Origin: Achromobacter spanius
Lineage (GTDB): Bacteria; Pseudomonadota; Gammaproteobacteria; Burkholderiales; Burkholderiaceae_B
DNA length: 64,000 bases
Assembly: GCF_002812705.1 (NCBI RefSeq)
Contig: NZ_CP025030.1
Location: forward strand, 5,890,001 to 5,954,000
Reading direction: 5' to 3'
The notes under the pieces are model-generated. The model made no database searches, was not told where the DNA came from, and worked only from the letters and a program-made list of their open reading frames with translations. Made by a program: the position numbers and the translations under genes. Positions 51,931 through 63,996 of the stretch are shown here, one piece after another. Positions within the stretch are counted from its first letter, which is position 1. Each line of letters starts with the position of its first letter.

Positions 51931-52728
51931 TCAGCCTTCCACGACGGCGTACGCCGAGTGGTTGTGGATGGATTCAAAGTTCTCGGCTTCGACGCGGTAG
52001 CGGGCGATGCCGGGGTGCGCGGTCAGGCGCGCGGCCACGTCGCGCACCAGGTCTTCGACGAACTTGGGGTTGTCGTAGGCGCGTTCGGTCACGTACTTTT
52101 CGTCGGGGCGCTTGAGCAGGCCCCACAGTTCGCACGAACCTTCTTCTTCGATCAGGCGGATGACACCGTCCATGCTGATGTCGCCGTTCAGGATGGCCGA
52201 CACGGTCACGTGCGAACGCTGGTTGTGCGCGCCGTATTCCGAGATGGCCTTCGAACACGGGCACAGGCTGGTGACCGGCACCTGCACGACGAGCTCGAAT
52301 TCAACGCTGTCGCCCTGAGCGCGCGCGATCCACTGGACTTCGTAGTCCAGCAGGCTTTGCACGCCGGAAATGGGAGCCGACTTGTTGATGAAGTACGGGA
52401 ACGCCGCGGTGATGTCACCGCGTTCGGCGTGCAGCAAGGGCAGCATGTCGGCCGCCATGGCGCGGAACAAGGCCGGCGTCATGGGCGTGCTTCGATACTT
52501 TTCCAGCAGCGCCACGAAGCGGGACATATGCGTCCCCTTTTCTTCGGGCGGCAGCGCCACGGTCAGCGTCCAGTTGGCAACGGTGCCTTGGGGCGAACCG
52601 TCACCGCTTTCAATCAGCATGGGGTGGCGCACGCCACGAATGCCCACGCGCTGGATCGGGATGTGCCGGGTGTCCGCCGAACTTTGGACGTCGGGCATCA
52701 CGATGGCGGGGTCGATCGGAGAATTCAT
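51931..52728 (-). CDS. folE2: GTP cyclohydrolase FolE2 (type IB)
   Basis: A 265-aa enzyme that makes dihydroneopterin triphosphate for folate and queuosine synthesis. The key cysteine loop [19 protein letters not shown] is clear, along with RGVRHPM near the start. It lacks the zinc-dependent FolE1 signature. A strong terminator is missing before it, so it is probably co-transcribed with dxs, 186 bases upstream. Confidence 0.95.
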
Positions 52729-52914
52729 TTCAGCTTACCTGTCTAGGCAACCAGTCGCTCGCGCACGGCCTAGGAAACTTTAAGAGGGGGCCATTATCGC
52801 TCAAAGCCCCGTGACCGCCAGGGAAAACCCTTCTATCCGTAGGTCGGTTGGGGCGGAACAGTGTGTTGCAAATCCGGACGAGGGCGCCGCCCCCGACCGG
52901 ATGCCGCGCCAGCT

Positions 52915-54777
52915 TCAAGCCAGCAGATCGGCGTAACGATTGCGGATCGATTGCTCGATGCCGGCGGCATCCAGGCCAATGCCCGCCAACAAGGCCGACT
53001 GGTCGCCATGGTCGATAAAGACGTCCGGCAGGCCCAGTTGCAGCACCGGAATCTGCACGCCCGCGGCGCTCAGCGCTTCAAGCACCGCACTGCCGGCGCC
53101 GCCCATGATCGAGGCGTCTTCGATCGTGACCAGCGCGTCGTGACGCCGCGCCAGGTCCAGGATCAGGTCAAGGTCGATCGGCTTGACGAAGCGCATGTCG
53201 GCCACGGTGGCGTCCAGCTTGCCCGCCGCGGCAAGCGCCGCTTGCACCAGCGTGCCAAAACCCAGGATGGCGATCTTCTTGCCTTCGCGCCGCACCACGC
53301 CTCGGCCCAGTTCCACCGTGTCCAAGCTCGTGCCTTCCGGGGCGCCACAGCCTGCGCCGCGCGGATAGCGCACCGAGGCCGGGCCGGGATGCTGATAACA
53401 GGTCGACAGCAACAAGCGGGTTTCGCTTTCGTCGGAAGGTGTGGCCACCACCATGTTCGGCACGCAACGCAGAAAGGCGATGTCGTAATTGCCGGCGTGG
53501 GTGGCGCCGTCAGCGCCGACGATACCGGCGCGGTCCAGCGCGAACGTCACGTCCAGGTTTTGCAGCGCGACGTCGTGGATGAACTGGTCGTAGCCGCGCT
53601 GCATGAAGGTGGAGTAAATCGCCACGACGGGCTTTTGCCCTTCGCAGGCCACGCCGGCCGCGAACGTCACGGCGTGCTGCTCAGCGATGCCCACGTCGAA
53701 ATAACGGAGCGGAAAGCGCTTTTCAAATTCAACCAGGCCGCTGCCTTCGCGCATGGCCGGCGTGACGGCGACCAGATGCGGGTCTTGCTCGGCCATGTCG
53801 CACAGCCACTGGCCGAACACCTGCGTGAACGTGCGCTTGCCCGGCGCCTTGGATTGCTGGATACCGACCGCAGGATCGAACTTGCCCGGCCCGTGATACA
53901 GCACCGGATCGGCCTCGGCCAGCTTGTAGCCCTGCCCCTTCTTGGTGACCACATGCAGGAATTGCAGGCCTTGCAACGCCTTCAGGTTCTGCAGGGTGGG
54001 GACCAGCGCGTCCAGGTCGTGCCCATCGATGGGGCCGACGTAGTTGAAGCCGAACTCTTCGAACAGCGTGGCCGGCGTGACCATGCCCTTGGCATGTTCT
54101 TCAAACCGGCGCGCCAGTTCCAGCACCGGCGGCACGTGCTGCAAGACGGCCCGGCCCACGTTCTTGGCGGTGGCGTAGAAGCGGCCCGACATCAGGCGCG
54201 CCAGGTAGCGGTTCAGCGCCCCCACTGGCGGCGAGATCGACATGTCGTTGTCGTTCAGGATGACCAGCAGGTTGATGTTGGGCGTGACGCCCGCGTTGTT
54301 CATGGCCTCGAACGCCATGCCCGCGGACATGGCGCCGTCGCCGATGACGGCGATGTGCTGGCGTTGCACGCCCGCATTGCGCGAGGCCACCGCCATGCCC
54401 AGTGCCGCCGAGATCGACGTGGACGAATGCGCGGTGCCGAAGGCGTCGTACTCGGATTCGCTGCGCTTGGGAAAGCCCGAAATGCCACCCTGCTGCCGCA
54501 ACTGCGCCATGCCGGCGCGGCGGCCGGTCAGGATTTTGTGCGGATAGGACTGGTGGCCCACGTCCCAGACGATGCGGTCATGCGGTGTATCGAACACCTG
54601 ATGCAGGGCCAGCGTCAGCTCGACCGTGCCCAGGTTGGACGACAGGTGTCCGCCCGTTTTGGATACCGACTCCAGCACAAAGCCGCGCAGTTCGTCGGCA
54701 AGCTTTTTCAGCTCGCGACGATCCAGGCGCTTGAGGTCGGCCGGGGATTGAATGCGGTCCAATAAATCAGTCGTCAT
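52915..54777 (-). CDS. dxs: 1-deoxy-D-xylulose-5-phosphate synthase
   Basis: A 620-aa thiamine-diphosphate enzyme that starts the MEP isoprenoid pathway from pyruvate and glyceraldehyde-3-phosphate. Visible are [13 protein letters not shown], the ThDP motif [18 protein letters not shown], the catalytic-site histidine in [11 protein letters not shown] and the C-terminal [13 protein letters not shown]. It follows ispA by 53 bases, the normal order in proteobacteria. Confidence 0.97.
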
Positions 54778-54830
54778 GCTTTTATGGGGTTCGTTGCCCC
54801 GGCCTGAACCCAGGCCGGGCTTGTCACGGA

Positions 54831-55760
54831 TCAGCGGTCTCGAAGGACGATGAAATCAGCCAATTGCGCCAGACGCAAGCCCGCGTCGCCTAAGGGCTCC
54901 AGCGCCGCCCGCGCGGCCACGCGCAATTCCTCGGCAAACTCGCGCGCCTCGGACAGGCCCAGCAGCGATACGTAGGTAGGCTTGTTTTCCGCCGCGTCCT
55001 TGCCCGGCGTCTTGCCCAGGCTGGCCGTGTCGGCGGTGACGTCCAGAATATCGTCCACCACCTGGAACGCCAGGCCCATGGCTTGCGCGTAGGCGTCCAG
55101 CGCCTGGCGCGAGGCCGAACTGGCGCCCGCCACGATGCCGCCCAGGGCCACGCTGCACGCGAGCATGGCGCCCGTCTTCATGCTGTGCATGGTCTGGAGT
55201 TCGTCGCGCGACAGCGAATGGCCGACGCTGAGCAGGTCAATGGCCTGACCGCCCGCCATGCCCTGACTGCCGGCGGCGCGCGCCAGCGACTGGGTCGCCT
55301 GCACGATGAGCGCGGGCGCGATGGGCATCGAGGCCAGCAAGTCGAAGGCCAGCGGCTGCAAGGCGTCGCCCGCCAGCATGGCGGTGGCTTCGTCAAACTG
55401 CACATGGGTTGTAGGGCGGCCACGGCGCAGGGTGTCGTCGTCCATGCAAGGCAGGTCGTCATGCACCAGCGAATAAGCGTGGATCAATTCAACCGCAGCG
55501 GCGGCGCGGTCCAGCGAGGCCTCGATGGCCAGCACGCTGCCGCTGACCGGGCAGGCCTGCCCCGCGGCGTAGACCATGGCGGCGCGTACGCGCTTGCCAC
55601 CGCCCAGCACCGCATAGCGCATGGCTTCATGCAGGCGGACAGGCAGCACGTCCGCGGGGGGCATCAGGTCGTCCAGGACGTCTTCGACGTGCCGCACGCG
55701 ACCCTGCAACCACTCCGCAAAGGGGAGTTGAGTTTGCTTCATCGGATTCTTATTCGTCAT
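54831..55760 (-). CDS. ispA: Farnesyl diphosphate synthase
   Basis: A 309-aa polyprenyl synthase. The first aspartate-rich motif [19 protein letters not shown] and the second DDILD are present, as is [13 protein letters not shown]. It condenses isopentenyl and dimethylallyl diphosphate. The ATG at 55760 overlaps the end of xseB by 11 bases; an ATG at 55742 (MKQTQLPF) is an alternative start. Confidence 0.96.
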
Positions 55761-56073
55761 CCAGCGCCGCCGGGTCGAGCGGGCGCAACAGGTCGCCTTC
55801 CAGAACCTTGACCTGTTGTTCGGCCTGCGCCAAGCGTTCCTGGCAGACCCGCGTCAGCGCCACGCCGCGCCGGTAGGCGGTCAGTGATTGCTCAAGCGGC
55901 AACGAGCCGTCTTCCATGGCCGCCACTAAGGACTCCAACTCGGCCAGGGCCGTTTCGAAATCTTGAGGCAGGGGACGGTCGTCAATCTGCGGATCGGCTT
56001 GTGCGGGGTTGGCCAAACGGGTCTCCGAGGGCGCTAGGGGTGGATCAATTTGTGAATTGTACGAGATAGCCAA
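55750..56073 (-). CDS. xseB: Exodeoxyribonuclease VII small subunit
   Basis: A 107-aa protein with the XseB helical hairpin: LPQDFETALAELESLVAAME, then GSLPLEQSLTAYRRGVALTR. The first 35 residues are an extended, low-complexity head. It forms exonuclease VII with XseA (not in this window). It overlaps ispA at its 3' end, the standard xseB-ispA-dxs order. Confidence 0.95.
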   Translation of the reverse strand: MAISYNSQIDPPLAPSETRLANPAQADPQIDDRPLPQDFETALAELESLVAAMEDGSLPLEQSLTAYRRGVALTRVCQERLAQAEQQVKVLEGDLLRPLDPAALDDE

Positions 56074-59410: not shown

Positions 59411-59537
59411 AACACTGGATGAAGCCTCGTCCATCTTCCCGGGCGTGAGGGAGACCCTTGGGGTACAATTCACGGCTTATTTGATCGGCCAGACACCGAT
59501 TTTTCTTCGCGCCAGCACGTATGTAGCCAAGCTCATC

Positions 59538-59629
59538 GTTGAGCTCCAAGCGGTTTTCAGGACGGTTTCCTGAAAACGCTGGGCTTGAACAAAAACGCTT
59601 GGCAGAGCTCAAACCGTCCTGGCTTTTTT
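59538..59629 (+). promoter_or_regulatory. Candidate attenuator/riboswitch leader of the Rieske oxygenase gene
   Basis: Three helices compete. P1 pairs 59539-59552 with 59596-59612 (14 bp with a 3-base bulge). P2 is a perfect 9-bp hairpin, 59553-59561 with 59569-59577, loop ACGGTTT. The alternative helix T pairs 59558-59568 with 59611-59621 (11 bp, perfect), followed by GC and six T residues, a terminator. The P2 loop is also complementary to 59611-59617, allowing a pseudoknot. The ribosome-binding site GGAGGG begins 10 bases after the T-tract. A likely -10 TACAAT lies at 59464-59469. I cannot match this to a known riboswitch class. Confidence 0.6.
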
Positions 59630-59647
59630 ATCCGAGCGGAGGGAATC

Positions 59648-60793
59648 ATGACCGACATCGGTCGGATGGCACATGTCGTGCCAGCTCGCACCCAGCTACC
59701 CGTCAGCGCTTACTTTGACGAAGCCCTCTTTGCCCGCGAGCAAGAACTCATTTTCAAGCAATCCTCGCAGTACGTCGGACACCAGAAAGTAGTGCCCGAG
59801 ATTGGGGATTGGCGGTCGTTGGTCCAGGAAAACGGGGGGCGCGTGCTGGTTCGTAACCAGCAAGGCGTTGAACTCATCTCAAATGTCTGCCGCCATCGTC
59901 AGGCATTGATGCTGGGCGGCGAAGCCGGCAATGTGGCCGGCAACTGCAATACGCAAGGCAATCTGAAGGCAACCGGCGGCAATATTGTCTGCCCGCTGCA
60001 CCGTTGGACGTACAACAACCAAGGCGAGTTGTTGGGCGCGCCTCAGTTCGAGACTACCCCCTGCATGAATCTGCAGAAGTTTCGCCTGCGCGATTGCCAC
60101 GGCTTGCTGTTTGAAGGCCCGCGCGACCCGGCGTCTGACATGGCCCCGTTGTTCTCGCGCCCCGAGTTCAACTTCGGCGACTACGTGCTCGATCACGTTG
60201 AAGTGCATCAGTGCAACTACAACTGGAAGACCTTCATCGAGGTCTACCTCGAGGACTACCACGTCGGGCCGTTCCACCCAGGCCTGGGCCGTTTCGTTAC
60301 CTGCGACGACCTGACCTGGGAATTCAACGACTGGTACAGCCTGCAAAAAGTGGGCGTGCACAATGCGTTGGCCCAACCGGGTTCAGACGTGTACAAGCAA
60401 TGGCACGACCGCCTGCTGTCGTTCCGCGAAGGCGATGCGCCCGACTTCGGCGCGGTCTGGGTCACGTACTTTCCGACCCACATGATCGAGCTTTACCCGC
60501 ACGTGCTGGTGCTGTCCACGCTGTACCCGAAGAGCCCGCAGGAAACGGTGAACGTTGTCGAGTTCTACTACCCCGAGGAAATCTCGGCGTTCGAACGCGA
60601 ATTCGTCGAAGCCCAGCGCGCCGCCTACATGGAAACGGCCATCGAAGACGATGAAATCGCCGAACGCATGGACGCCGGCCGCAGGGCACTGATGTTGCGC
60701 GGCGTGAATGAAGCCGGTCCTTACCAATCACCGATGGAAGACGGCATGCAGCACTTCCACGAATGGTATCGACGCATCATGCAAGACCTTTGA
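59648..60793 (+). CDS. Rieske-type aromatic ring-hydroxylating oxygenase, alpha subunit-like
   Basis: A 381-aa oxygenase with a Rieske [2Fe-2S] domain (Cys81-x-His83 and Cys115-x2-His118) and a mononuclear iron site (Asp203-Tyr-His205-x4-His210). The two Rieske half-motifs are 31 residues apart rather than the usual 15-17, owing to an insert rich in Gly, Asn and Ala. No reductase or ferredoxin gene is adjacent. The ATG at 59648 has GGAGGG upstream. Substrate unknown; it is under a possible RNA switch. Confidence 0.9.
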   Translation: MTDIGRMAHVVPARTQLPVSAYFDEALFAREQELIFKQSSQYVGHQKVVPEIGDWRSLVQENGGRVLVRNQQGVELISNVCRHRQALMLGGEAGNVAGNCNTQGNLKATGGNIVCPLHRWTYNNQGELLGAPQFETTPCMNLQKFRLRDCHGLLFEGPRDPASDMAPLFSRPEFNFGDYVLDHVEVHQCNYNWKTFIEVYLEDYHVGPFHPGLGRFVTCDDLTWEFNDWYSLQKVGVHNALAQPGSDVYKQWHDRLLSFREGDAPDFGAVWVTYFPTHMIELYPHVLVLSTLYPKSPQETVNVVEFYYPEEISAFEREFVEAQRAAYMETAIEDDEIAERMDAGRRALMLRGVNEAGPYQSPMEDGMQHFHEWYRRIMQDL

Positions 60794-60883: not shown

Positions 60884-62014
60884 TCAATGTCCGATCACAC
60901 CCGCCACCGTGCGTTCGCCGATCGCCAGCCCCACCGTCATGCCGACGCCGGAATGCATGACCGCCACCGTCGTGGCGGCGTCCACCGGCATGACCGAGAA
61001 CGGCGCCGGTCCGTGTGCGCCATACACGCCCTGCCAACGCTCCAGCACACGCAAGCGCGCGCCCAGGGCCTGCGACGCCAGGTCCAGCATGGCGTTGTCG
61101 ACCGCCTCGTCGTTGAACGGGAACGCATCCTGCCCATAGCGATGCGAGTCGCCGATGATCAGTTCCCCGTTCGGCGTGGGGCTGATCAGCAGATGGATGC
61201 CGTTTTCAACCAGCATCGGCGTGCGTTCCTGGATCACCTGGCGCAGCGCCTGCGCCGTGGGCAGGTCCGAGAACGCGCCGTAATGCACGCACGACAGGCC
61301 GGTCAGCACCGGGCGGTCCAAGGCGATGGCGTTGGTGTCGAACGCCGCGCGCAGCATCTGCAAGCGCGAGACTTCCAGGTTCAGCGGCGCGAAACGCTCG
61401 GGCAGCAGCGTCAGGTAGTCATGGCCGGGGCACACGAAAACATGCTTGCCCTGGAAGTCTCCGGCCGTGGTGCCGACCAGGCCGTTTTCCACTGCGCGCG
61501 CCAGCGTGCCGGTAATGAACGTCACGCCCAGCGACTCGGCCAGGTAGCGGGTCATGGCCGGCAAGGCCTCGCGCGAATAGATCTGCAGGTCGTCATGGCC
61601 ACGCAGCGCCAGGCAGTGGTGCGCAAGCTGGCCGCCATACAAGCCGGCCACCTCGCGCGCCGACAGCAGGTTGGCGCGATAGCCTTCCTGCGCCAGCCGC
61701 GTGTCCGCGAATTCCTGCAGCACGCGGGCCTCGTCCAGGTTGCGCGCCAGCACCAGCGCGCCGTTGGCCCGCACATGAAAGCCTGCCTTGGCGGCCAGGT
61801 CCAGCCACAGCTCGCGCGCCTGTTGGGCGTGCGACAGCATCATGCCGGGCGGCTGGCCCGTCACGATGACCTGGCCAAAGTTGCGGATGGTGGCGCCGTG
61901 CGCCTGGCGGCTGCGCTCGATGACCGCCACCGACAGGCCGCGCTTGGCAGCCGCCCAGGCGTGGGCGATGCCAAGCATGCCCGCGCCCACCACGATCACG
62001 TCGTAAGTTTTCAT
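60884..62014 (-). CDS. FAD-dependent oxidoreductase of the 2-aminoethylphosphonate cluster (TIGR03364 type)
   Basis: A 376-aa DAO-like flavoenzyme: N-terminal VIVVGAGMLGIAHAWAAAKR and a conserved ATIRNFGQVIVTGQ stretch. Members of this subgroup are found in phosphonate gene sets (proposed name HpnW) and probably oxidise aminophosphonates. It lies 13 bases after the aminoethylphosphonate-binding protein gene and downstream of phnX. The ATG at 62014 is used. Confidence 0.85.
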   Translation of the reverse strand: MKTYDVIVVGAGMLGIAHAWAAAKRGLSVAVIERSRQAHGATIRNFGQVIVTGQPPGMMLSHAQQARELWLDLAAKAGFHVRANGALVLARNLDEARVLQEFADTRLAQEGYRANLLSAREVAGLYGGQLAHHCLALRGHDDLQIYSREALPAMTRYLAESLGVTFITGTLARAVENGLVGTTAGDFQGKHVFVCPGHDYLTLLPERFAPLNLEVSRLQMLRAAFDTNAIALDRPVLTGLSCVHYGAFSDLPTAQALRQVIQERTPMLVENGIHLLISPTPNGELIIGDSHRYGQDAFPFNDEAVDNAMLDLASQALGARLRVLERWQGVYGAHGPAPFSVMPVDAATTVAVMHSGVGMTVGLAIGERTVAGVIGH

Positions 62015-62027
62015 CGCGGGCAACGCC

Positions 62028-63050
62028 TTACTTCTTCTTCGGCTCGGACTTGCCGTCGTAGCGGCGGGTCCACTCGGCGATGATGCGTTCACGGTTCGTG
62101 GCGGCCCACACGAAGTCGTTCTTGATCATGCGCTTGGTCAGGTCAGCCGGCAGGTTCGGGTTGGCCGTGGCGATGGACGGAATCGCCAGCACCGCGAAGT
62201 TGGCCTTGTACAGTTCGTTGGCTTCGCGGCTGGCCGAGAAGTCAGCCAGCTTGCGAGCGGCTTCCAGGTTCTTCGTGCCCTTCATGATGGCGGTGGCTTC
62301 CACTTCCCAGCCCAGGCCTTCCGACGGGAACACGGCTTCAACCGGCGCGCCATCGGCCTTCAGCTTGGCCGCGCGGTAGTCGAACGACACGCCAATCGGG
62401 AACTCACCCGCGGCGGCCATGTTGCACGGCTTGGAGCCCGAGTGCGTGTACGAACCAATGTTCTTGTGCAGGGCATCCATATAGGCCCAGCCCTTCTCTT
62501 CGCCAAAAATCTGCAACCAGGCGCTGACGTCCAAAAAGCCCGTGCCCGAAGACGCCGGGTTCGGCATGACGATCTTGCCGGCGTAGACGGGCTTGGTCAG
62601 GTCTTGCCACGAGGTCGGCTTGGGCAGCTTTTGCTTTTCGGCTTCGATGGTGTTGAAGCAGATGGCGGCGGCATAGCCGTCCATGCCGACCCACGACGGC
62701 TCAGCCTTGGCGTCGCGCATGTTCGCGGCGATCTGGTCCAGGCCCTTCGGGGCGTAGGGTTGCAGCATGCCTTCCTTGTCCATCAGGCCCAGCGCCGTGC
62801 CCGCCAAGCCCCAGATCACGTCCGCCTTGGGGTTGCTCTTTTCCGCCAGCAGCTTGGCGGCGATGATGCCCGTGGAATCGCGAACCCACTGGATCTTGAT
62901 GTCAGGGTTGGCTTTTTCAAACGCGGCTTGATAGACCTTGATCTGGTCGGCTTCGAGCGCGGTGTAGACCGTCAGCGTGGTCTCGGCGGAGGCGGCGCCC
63001 ATCATGCCCGTCAGGGCGGTGGCCAGGGCAAGCAGCTTGTAGCGATTCAT
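62028..63050 (-). CDS. 2-aminoethylphosphonate-type periplasmic binding protein
   Basis: A 340-aa protein with a Sec signal (LALATALTGMMGAASAE, cut after about residue 22) and an iron/phosphonate-type binding fold (TTLTVYTALEADQIKVYQAA, DSTGIIAAKLLAEK). Sequence and place beside phnX fit the PhnS-type 2-aminoethylphosphonate binder; iron-binding Fbp-like proteins are the alternative. The permease and ATPase genes are not in this window and may lie upstream. Confidence 0.82.
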   Translation of the reverse strand: MNRYKLLALATALTGMMGAASAETTLTVYTALEADQIKVYQAAFEKANPDIKIQWVRDSTGIIAAKLLAEKSNPKADVIWGLAGTALGLMDKEGMLQPYAPKGLDQIAANMRDAKAEPSWVGMDGYAAAICFNTIEAEKQKLPKPTSWQDLTKPVYAGKIVMPNPASSGTGFLDVSAWLQIFGEEKGWAYMDALHKNIGSYTHSGSKPCNMAAAGEFPIGVSFDYRAAKLKADGAPVEAVFPSEGLGWEVEATAIMKGTKNLEAARKLADFSASREANELYKANFAVLAIPSIATANPNLPADLTKRMIKNDFVWAATNRERIIAEWTRRYDGKSEPKKK

Positions 63051-63110
63051 GAGGAACTCCGTGAATGAGCGGAAAAAAGGGTGAAGGTCGCCGCCACGGT
63101 TGGACGATGC

Positions 63111-63159
63111 CGACCGCGGTCGCGATAAAAAAAAGCAGGGTTAAGTCCGGCTACGCCGG
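63111..63159 (-). other. Inverted repeats between phnX and the binding-protein gene
   Basis: The 139-base gap holds a 12-bp palindrome CGACCGCGGTCG (63111-63122) and a small CCGGC/GCCGG hairpin (63147-63159) with eight T residues on the minus strand about a dozen bases beyond it. It could partly end phnX transcripts. Weak evidence. Confidence 0.35.
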
Positions 63160-63189
63160 GCAGAAAGTAATCAGGCTGATGGCTTTAGT

Positions 63190-63996
63190 TCAGGGTCGTT
63201 GGCCTCGCGCCAGACGGGCTTCGATGTCGGTAATCACGGCGGGCAGGTCGGCCACCGTGTCGATCAGGTAATGCGGGTGGGCGGACGACAGCTCCGCGCG
63301 TGCCTCGACGCGCGCGCGCTCGCGGCCGTTCTCATCCAGGCTCAGATATTCGTCCAGCGTCAGGCCGGCGGCGTTGCCCGACAACAAGAGCCCCACCGTC
63401 CACATGCCGGCGCGCCGCCCTTCCTCGATACCGGGCGCGGTGTCGTCGACCTTGATGCAGCCGGCCACATCGGACAGCCCCAGTTCGACCACGTTTTTCA
63501 AGGCCATGGCAGGCGCCGGGCGCGCGCGCGGCACATCGTCGCTGGCCACGATGCAGTCCGGCTCCAAACCCTCGGACGCCGCGCGCTCGACCACCCGGCG
63601 CATGACGCTATCGGGGTAGCCCGAGCACGAGCCGATCTTCAAGCCGTGTTGGCGCAGTGCGCGCAGCAATTCGGCCGCGCCCGGAATAGCCGCTGAATAC
63701 TGCGCCACCTTCTCCAGTTGCATCGGCAGGAAGCGGTCGTAGATGGCGGTGACGTCGTCATCGGAAGGCAAGCGGCCGAACTGGGCCTGGTACTGGCTGG
63801 CGATGGCGGGCTGATCGCACAGGGCGCGGATGTGGTCCCACTTGCCCATGCCCATGGGGCCACGGGCTTCTTTCAGCGACACATCCATGCCGAACTGCGA
63901 GAAGGCGTCCACGAACACCTTGGTGGGCGCAAACGAACCGAAGTCCACCAGCGTGCCGGCCCAGTCAAAGATGACGGCTTCCAGTTGGACGGGCAA
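63190..63996 (-). CDS. phnX: Phosphonoacetaldehyde hydrolase (5' end may lie outside window)
   Basis: A HAD-superfamily hydrolase of about 268 aa that splits phosphonoacetaldehyde into acetaldehyde and phosphate. Seen are the nucleophile loop [43 protein letters not shown] and the Mg2+-binding [11 protein letters not shown]. The family lysine that forms the Schiff base is in the GKWDH stretch. The reading frame begins at TTG 63996 within four bases of the window edge; the true start may be further upstream. Confidence 0.94.

Follow-up and report, generated by a model that had tools for sequence, protein, structure and literature searches.

The gene for a Rieske oxygenase in Achromobacter spanius is preceded by what we interpret as a new leader RNA that acts in cis and likely represses translation by masking the ribosome-binding site, a reading to which we assign a probability of about 0.6 on the basis of predicted folds and comparison of leaders. 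Near the likely 5' end, a U-rich strand would pair with the ribosome-binding site (helix H3) and keep translation low; H3 would be stacked on a second helix (H2) with a bulge between the two, preceded by a small hairpin (H1) and followed by two hairpins (H4 and H5) within the first 12 codons. We infer that repression is the default state and that some trans-acting factor or ligand would open the leader and release translation. Comparison between genomes demonstrates the conserved blocks, their occurrence at one place per genome where checked, and the absence of an Rfam match, and the covariation of H2 is clear; the burial of the ribosome-binding site, by contrast, is predicted from folding.

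Leader RNAs that repress translation by sequestering the Shine-Dalgarno sequence are a known general kind. The leader described here shares with them an upstream anti-Shine-Dalgarno strand with predicted pairing to the ribosome-binding site, and differs in having no recognized aptamer or known ligand, in pairing that extends into codons 2 to 12, and in a hypervariable stem tip. We found no description of it in the accessible sections of the open-access literature surveyed, including PMC3110155, PMC4603805, and PMC2965389.

Parts of the leader

In the window, i.e., the whole stretch of 64,000 nucleotides that was analyzed, the conserved element extends from approximately position 59458 into codon 12 of the gene, as delimited by an alignment of leaders from the genus, in which two near-invariant blocks flank a middle of 30 to 213 nt (Table 1). 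Transcription would start near position 59475, judging from the TACAAT box; a promoter scan of the leader region returned no consensus promoter. H2 begins directly after the CTTCGC motif and closes directly before the U-rich bulge. The stem of H1 is kept in many genera and its loop differs among them, CCAG giving way to different bases in the majority of leaders from genus g32; in genus g43, the stem itself is rewritten as TGATC/GATCA. A perfect H1 stem of at least 5 bp is present in only 69 of 95 distinct leaders, in some of them in another register, and H1 is absent from some genera.

Table 1. Positions of the leader parts, of the helices described earlier, and of the downstream gene
Feature	Position	Strand	Sequence	Remark
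-10-like box, likely promoter	59464-59469	+	TACAAT	same place in most aligned genus leaders and in many family leaders
H1, small hairpin	59483-59501	+	GATCGG-CCAGACA-CCGATT	double changes in 3 of 5 pairs; 92.1% of cells paired
Anti-Shine-Dalgarno strand, 5' side of predicted helix H3	59500-59510	+	TTTTTCTTCGC	U-rich; CTTCGC motif
H2, 5' strand	59511-59519	+	GCCAG-C-ACG	covaries with 59615-59623
Hypervariable apical region of H2	59520-59614	+		30 to 213 nt within the genus; contains P1, P2, and the 5' strand of the alternative helix
P1	59539-59552 with 59596-59612	+	TTGAGCTCCAAGCG with CGCTTGG-CAG-AGCTCAA	5' strand is an extension of H2 in this lineage
P2, perfect 9-bp hairpin	59553-59577 (59553-59561 with 59569-59577; loop 59562-59568)	+	GTTTTCAGG with CCTGAAAAC; loop ACGGTTT	
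Alternative helix	59558-59568 with 59611-59621	+	CAGGACGGTTT with AAACCGTCCTG	followed by GC and TTTTTT (59624-59629)
H2, 3' strand	59615-59623	+	CGTCCTGGC	covaries with 59511-59519
U-rich bulge between H2 and H3	59624-59635	+	TTTTTTATCCGA	makes H2 terminator-like in this lineage
Ribosome-binding strand, 3' side of predicted helix H3	59636-59647	+	GCGGAGGGAATC	partner of 59501-59510
H4, hairpin in codons 2-6	59652-59665	+	CCGAC-ATCG-GTCGG	most pairs invariant; 23 of 69 rows lack the outermost one
H5, hairpin in codons 7-12	59668-59682	+	GGCAC-ATGTC-GTGCC	22 of 68 rows lack the outermost pair
Rieske oxygenase gene, 381 aa	59648-60793	+		PF00848 (2.9e-40), PF00355 (5.7e-9); clear ribosome-binding site

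One genus lineage (L034, L036, L037, L039, and L042 to L044) carries a GC-rich insertion of approximately 90 nt between H2 and the ribosome-binding site. The insertion begins immediately downstream of H2, ends immediately upstream of the ribosome-binding site, has inverted-repeat-like ends, and may be a repeated element such as one named in the accessible part of PMC3110155.

Distribution and specificity

The covariance model R1, built on A3, a MAFFT alignment of 25 close leaders, has a single significant match in the window's own genome, which is one contig of 6.4 Mb (E value of 1e-26; next, 0.9). It matches 159 of 250 family genomes, representing 30 of 43 genera, and none of the remaining 91. 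Among the 150 matches listed, out of approximately 165 in all, the gene place is known for 126, and all 126 lie on a Rieske start; 20 of the other 24 were fetched and likewise all lie on a Rieske start, giving 146 of 146 checked. Six family genomes have a second R1 match, which in G012 (L036) corresponds to the remaining half of that leader, cut in two by an insertion. Across 200 genomes of the order, strict filters left 3 matches, all within the window's family; together with the single significant match in the own genome, this led us to discard the idea of a widespread riboswitch. Applied to 42 loci from other families and to 4 paralogue loci, R1 gave a single match, at chance level and outside the leader (E value of 0.19), and the four paralogue starts themselves (L062, L101, L125, and L126) gave no match. 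A plasmid copy was also considered; the search returned no match.

A sequence-only reading of positions 59538 to 59629 had recognized no known riboswitch family, and the Rfam searches bear this out. Of 4,227 families run against the window, only a tRNA elsewhere in it reaches the gathering score; the leader region and nine family relatives stay under half of the gathering scores, and five loci of other families yield nothing at the gathering score. Membership of an Rfam family was rejected for all of these leaders.

Covariation and conservation of the first codons

We collected 138 leaders. The motif T3+C[T/G]TCGC precedes the gene in 103 of them; the other 35 lack it and comprise 11 family orthologues, 4 paralogues, and 20 leaders from other families. 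In the MAFFT alignments A1 and A2, some rows have the 3' strand of H2 in the wrong place, for which reason the strands were anchored by script or by model. In 69 distinct leaders, the mean H2 helix has 5.46 pairs, compared to 4.20 when strands are swapped between leaders (maximum of 4.54 in 200 trials), a mean in which L034, L036, and L039 of the insertion lineage and a few others were left with the wrong 3' strand assigned by the script. L127, from the same genome as L040, and L128 were excluded from the swap, from the opening-energy set, and from the counts on 95 leaders. In the 64 of 69 leaders with at least 4 pairs, the first H2 pair is GC in 40, AT in 23, and GT in 1, and the fourth is AT in 54, GT in 6, and GC in 4.

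The two alignments derived from R1, A4 (82 matches from 88 sources, a few weak matches included) and A5 (69 of 69 sources, with more genera), were both fitted to the structure, so that counts made on them lean towards it. In A4, 94.3% of cells pair and 21 pairs change on both sides, with slid versions of the structure reaching at most 45.5% paired; its 132 double-change cells compare to 23.2 in shuffles, and the 100 found in the 69 rows of A5 compare to 33.0, none of 500 shuffles being as high in either case. Double changes affect nine of the nine H2 pairs in A4 and six of the nine in A5. The unfitted alignment A3, with its 25 close leaders, gives a weak signal: two pairs have double changes (40 of 500 shuffles as high), and the covariation score is equaled in 6 of 500.

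The covariation of H1 and H5 appears weaker than that of H2. The fourth pair of H5 is AU in 33, GC in 32, GU in 13, and another combination in 3 of 81 rows; the association of A24/U32 versus G24/C32 has a Fisher P value of 9e-6 with kinship ignored, and the swap crosses a Val-to-Ala change. Positions of H3 are mostly invariant or change on one side in A4 and A5; this helix hardly covaries, since its ribosome-binding side is constant in any case and the leaders were chosen by the CTTCGC motif.

The first codons are also conserved at the nucleotide level. Among 63 distinct gene starts, obtained from 109 that had been picked by a selection (ATGACCGA) fixing codon 2 and omitting some distant genera, 60 of the 61 glycines at codon 5 are encoded by GGT; one of the rows is the paralogue L062. 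Codons 2, 3, 5, and 6 are identical in 38 of 38 genus loci, codons 2 and 3 being fixed by the locating patterns themselves, which fitted 38 of 38 genus loci and 30 of 30, 20 of 30, and 8 of 30 loci in other sets. Synonymous fixation over codons 2 to 12 in the genus is 0.95, compared to 0.86 over the gene, and 7 of 260 equal windows are as high.

Predicted burial of the ribosome-binding site

The anti-Shine-Dalgarno strand is complementary to GCGGAGGGAA just upstream of the ATG, and a full six-of-six partner of CTTCGC lies 12 to 16 nt before the ATG in 93 of 95 distinct leaders, which were themselves chosen by that motif. A conserved strand able to pair with the ribosome-binding site, as expected of a Shine-Dalgarno-sequestering leader, is thus present in these leaders; 103 of the 138 leaders bear the motif, and 11 family orthologues lack it. 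Several of these 11 keep GCGG, so that GCGG alone is no proof of H3.

In predicted folds of 99 leaders (L127, L128, L089, and L094 excluded), the ribosome-binding site is paired with a mean probability of 0.94, and 7.9 H3 pairs are expected. When the upstream part was shuffled in 22 leaders, the G-rich ribosome-binding site was still paired at 0.80 on average, compared to 0.95 for the native sequences. Opening energies exceed the median of 26 naively called window starts in 66 of 101 leaders and the 90th percentile in none; the comparison starts come from a GC-rich window, some are likely spurious, and one is the Rieske gene itself, and no excess is seen against them. Four paralogue starts have opening energies of 6.9 to 10.6 kcal/mol, compared to a mean of 14.5 kcal/mol in the 101 leaders. 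Seven leaders have only modest folding z-scores, ranging from -0.26 to -3.54. The best fold of the window's own sequence lacks H3, and forcing it costs 3.9 kcal/mol, perhaps because the long H2 tip offers other partners in this sequence.

Helices within the stem tip

The sequence-only reading had described a two-state switch made of P1, P2, and an alternative helix, with a terminator next to the ribosome-binding site. All of these pairings are there when the sequence is read directly, as is the complementarity of the P2 loop to positions 59611 to 59617; the pairings are real and beyond chance within this single sequence, in which positions 59520 to 59650 fold more stably than their own shuffles (z-score of -2.98; 2 of 200 shuffles as good).

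Conservation was compared in 40 genus leaders, 41 having been collected and 1 lacking both H2 anchors. An alternative helix of at least 9 bp occurs in 1 of the 40, that of this species, the next best being 7 bp; the 3' strand used for this comparison is shifted by one base, so that this species scores 10 and not 11. The exact P2 is likewise confined to this species, with 8 bp in L004, and the 5' strand of P1 is kept over 13 to 14 nt in 4 of the leaders, this species included, and over 8 nt in 8 more. No mutually exclusive helices kept in relatives were found among these 40 leaders. The alternative helix and P2 are thus not kept in close relatives, an outcome that the sequence-only reading had itself named as speaking against it, and the switch was rejected as a conserved device. 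The reading was right that a structured cis-acting RNA, without an Rfam match, adjoins the ribosome-binding site ahead of the Rieske gene; its three helices are not supported as a conserved two-state switch. The 3' strand of its terminator (59615 to 59623) is conserved; the covarying partner is 59511 to 59519, outside the interval that it considered. We take the middle to be a stem tip that grows fast, in which P1, P2, and the alternative helix would be recent growth. A covarying stem with a tip that is free to change means that switch-like helices in one genome can be noise, a useful caution for the interpretation of single sequences.

Alternative explanations

The leader could act as a transcription attenuator, in which H2 or the alternative helix forms an intrinsic terminator with the U-tract and H1, P1, or P2 sets its frequency, and in this sequence a hairpin is indeed followed by six T (59624 to 59629). 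Of 95 distinct leaders, 58 by script and 62 by eye have at least 5 T within the 8 nt that follow H2, the motif-less family leaders L068, L070, L095, and L099 also have a hairpin with a U-run, and so, by eye, do several leaders of another family. A stem followed by a U-tract is, however, missing in the other 33 of the 95 (37 by script; 33 is the fairer figure, as the script took the wrong strand in L034, L036, L039, and L042, where the insertion places CCTGGCTTTTT further up). Termination is therefore not the shared function, given a U-tract that is absent in about a third of the leaders, and the terminator of the sequence-only reading does not hold up as a common device. Genus g43 is among those with fewer than 5 T yet keeps H1, H2, and the anti-Shine-Dalgarno strand, the rarity of the alternative helix in the window's genus tells against attenuation, and a terminator scan calls only H1 terminator-like here (one found, 0.4 expected). 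A more permissive search was positive in 95 of 103 motif leaders, 10 of 11 motif-less family leaders, and 25 of 30 and 9 of 30 leaders in two other families; it also hit 16 of 150 random pieces of the window and, being too loose, was not used as support. Compared to the intrinsic-terminator attenuators in the accessible part of a survey (PMC2965389), the leader is alike in having, in this genus, a stem and U-tract just upstream of the gene, and differs in that the U-tract is unconserved over the family and no conserved competing helix was found. We regard attenuation as unlikely to be the main function; in the window's genus and its near relatives, H2 and the U-tract together might additionally halt transcription, a further layer that is not universal. 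Four family leaders without the anti-Shine-Dalgarno strand (L095, L099, L100, and L122) have a common hairpin motif, CTYATGACCCTTGGTRAG, before the gene; three of them have a U-run after it.

A U-rich strand lying on the ribosome-binding site could also melt with heat, as in fourU RNA thermometers, and the U run is predicted to pair, through several G-U pairs, with GGGAA beside the Shine-Dalgarno site, a feature shared with the fourU elements in the accessible part of PMC10586365. The predicted unpaired share of the ribosome-binding site averages 0.03 at 20°C and still no more than 0.11 at 50°C over 22 leaders, a rise that is too small and, by prediction, not a melting in the physiological range; in contrast to the fourU elements, the structure is predicted to be mostly closed at 50°C and rests on the covarying H2. 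A thermometer was rejected on these grounds and seems very improbable. If there were no regulation at all, what is conserved would be a promoter, a ribosome-binding site, and start codons, and the stem would passively protect the messenger or set its timing. The unexceptional opening energies and folding z-scores fit this explanation, as does the fact that no trigger was found; on the other hand, H2 covaries over many genera while its tip ranges from 30 to 213 nt within one genus, and synonymous sites are more fixed at the gene start than elsewhere in the gene, which makes the passive explanation quite improbable. With the U-tract absent in about a third of the leaders and the predicted melting too small, repression of translation by sequestration of the ribosome-binding site is the most likely explanation.

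The Rieske oxygenase gene and its surroundings

The protein has no NCBIfam equivalog at the cutoff, and its nearest solved chains are remote (best E value of 5e-10). The gene is present in 43 of 43 genus genomes (partial in G032 and G034), in 185 of 250 family genomes (E values of up to 1e-150), and in 211 of 300 order genomes (E values of up to 1e-120), some of which have only 1.2 to 2 Mb. Second copies, 76 to 79% identical, occur in 15 of the 43 genus genomes, and one of 87% identity occurs in G120; the four that were examined (L062, L101, L125, and L126; 76 to 87% identical) are without the leader. One relative with 77% identity is named as an iron-sulfur protein of the alcaligin siderophore cluster.

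Beside the gene, positions 60884 to 63996 of the window hold a likely cluster for uptake and breakdown of 2-aminoethylphosphonate (TIGR03364, phnS2, and phosphonatase). Upstream, on the other strand, positions 51931 to 56073 include xseB, along with genes that we take to be folE2-like, dxs-like, and ispA-like. A possible divergent promoter, TTGTACGAGATG, is located close to the Rieske leader in other genera.

Leaders of the same gene in other families

In two further families, whose names (Burkholderia-like and Comamonas-like) are inferred, the same Rieske gene is preceded by other, family-specific leaders (30 loci each). In the majority of the loci, their sequence hardly varies as far as the gene start and on into the first codons; no R1 homology was found in these leaders. 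Consensus folds of 27 Burkholderia-like and 20 Comamonas-like leaders predict the ribosome-binding site and the start codon region to be in helices. Folding z-scores of single leaders from other families are lower in L153 (-2.28), L190 (-1.47), L148 (-1.35), and L115 (-1.08) and near zero in L160 (-0.01), L177 (-0.33), L182 (0.07), and L118 (0.55); as several single folds are no more stable than their shuffles, a lock in these families is a lead and not a result. Synonymous fixation at the gene start is clear in 20 of 30 Comamonas-like loci (0.93 versus 0.79; 6 of 197 windows as high), weak in the Burkholderia-like set (0.74 versus 0.69; 38 of 189 windows as high), and absent in 8 further Comamonas-like loci (0.82 versus 0.82; 102 of 197 windows as high). 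The first codons of L104 to L106, L177, and similar leaders of another family, ATGTCTGATTTAAGTCTTCAACTGCAGCAGGC, are nearly identical between genera, including a TTA codon.

It is conceivable, and we offer it tentatively, that one Rieske gene is locked by RNA throughout an order, each family having its own lock, so that the function persists and the RNA is replaced repeatedly: (i) in the window's family, an upstream strand would cover the ribosome-binding site; (ii) in the Burkholderia-like family, the leader would be complementary to the ribosome-binding site and codons 2 to 5; (iii) in the Comamonas-like family, the first codons would pair back onto the ribosome-binding site.

To conclude, if sequestration of the ribosome-binding site is the correct reading, a dedicated leader RNA exists in at least 30 genera of one family, on a gene retained even by several genomes of 1.2 to 2 Mb in the order, and identification of whatever opens the leader would point to the role of the Rieske enzyme.
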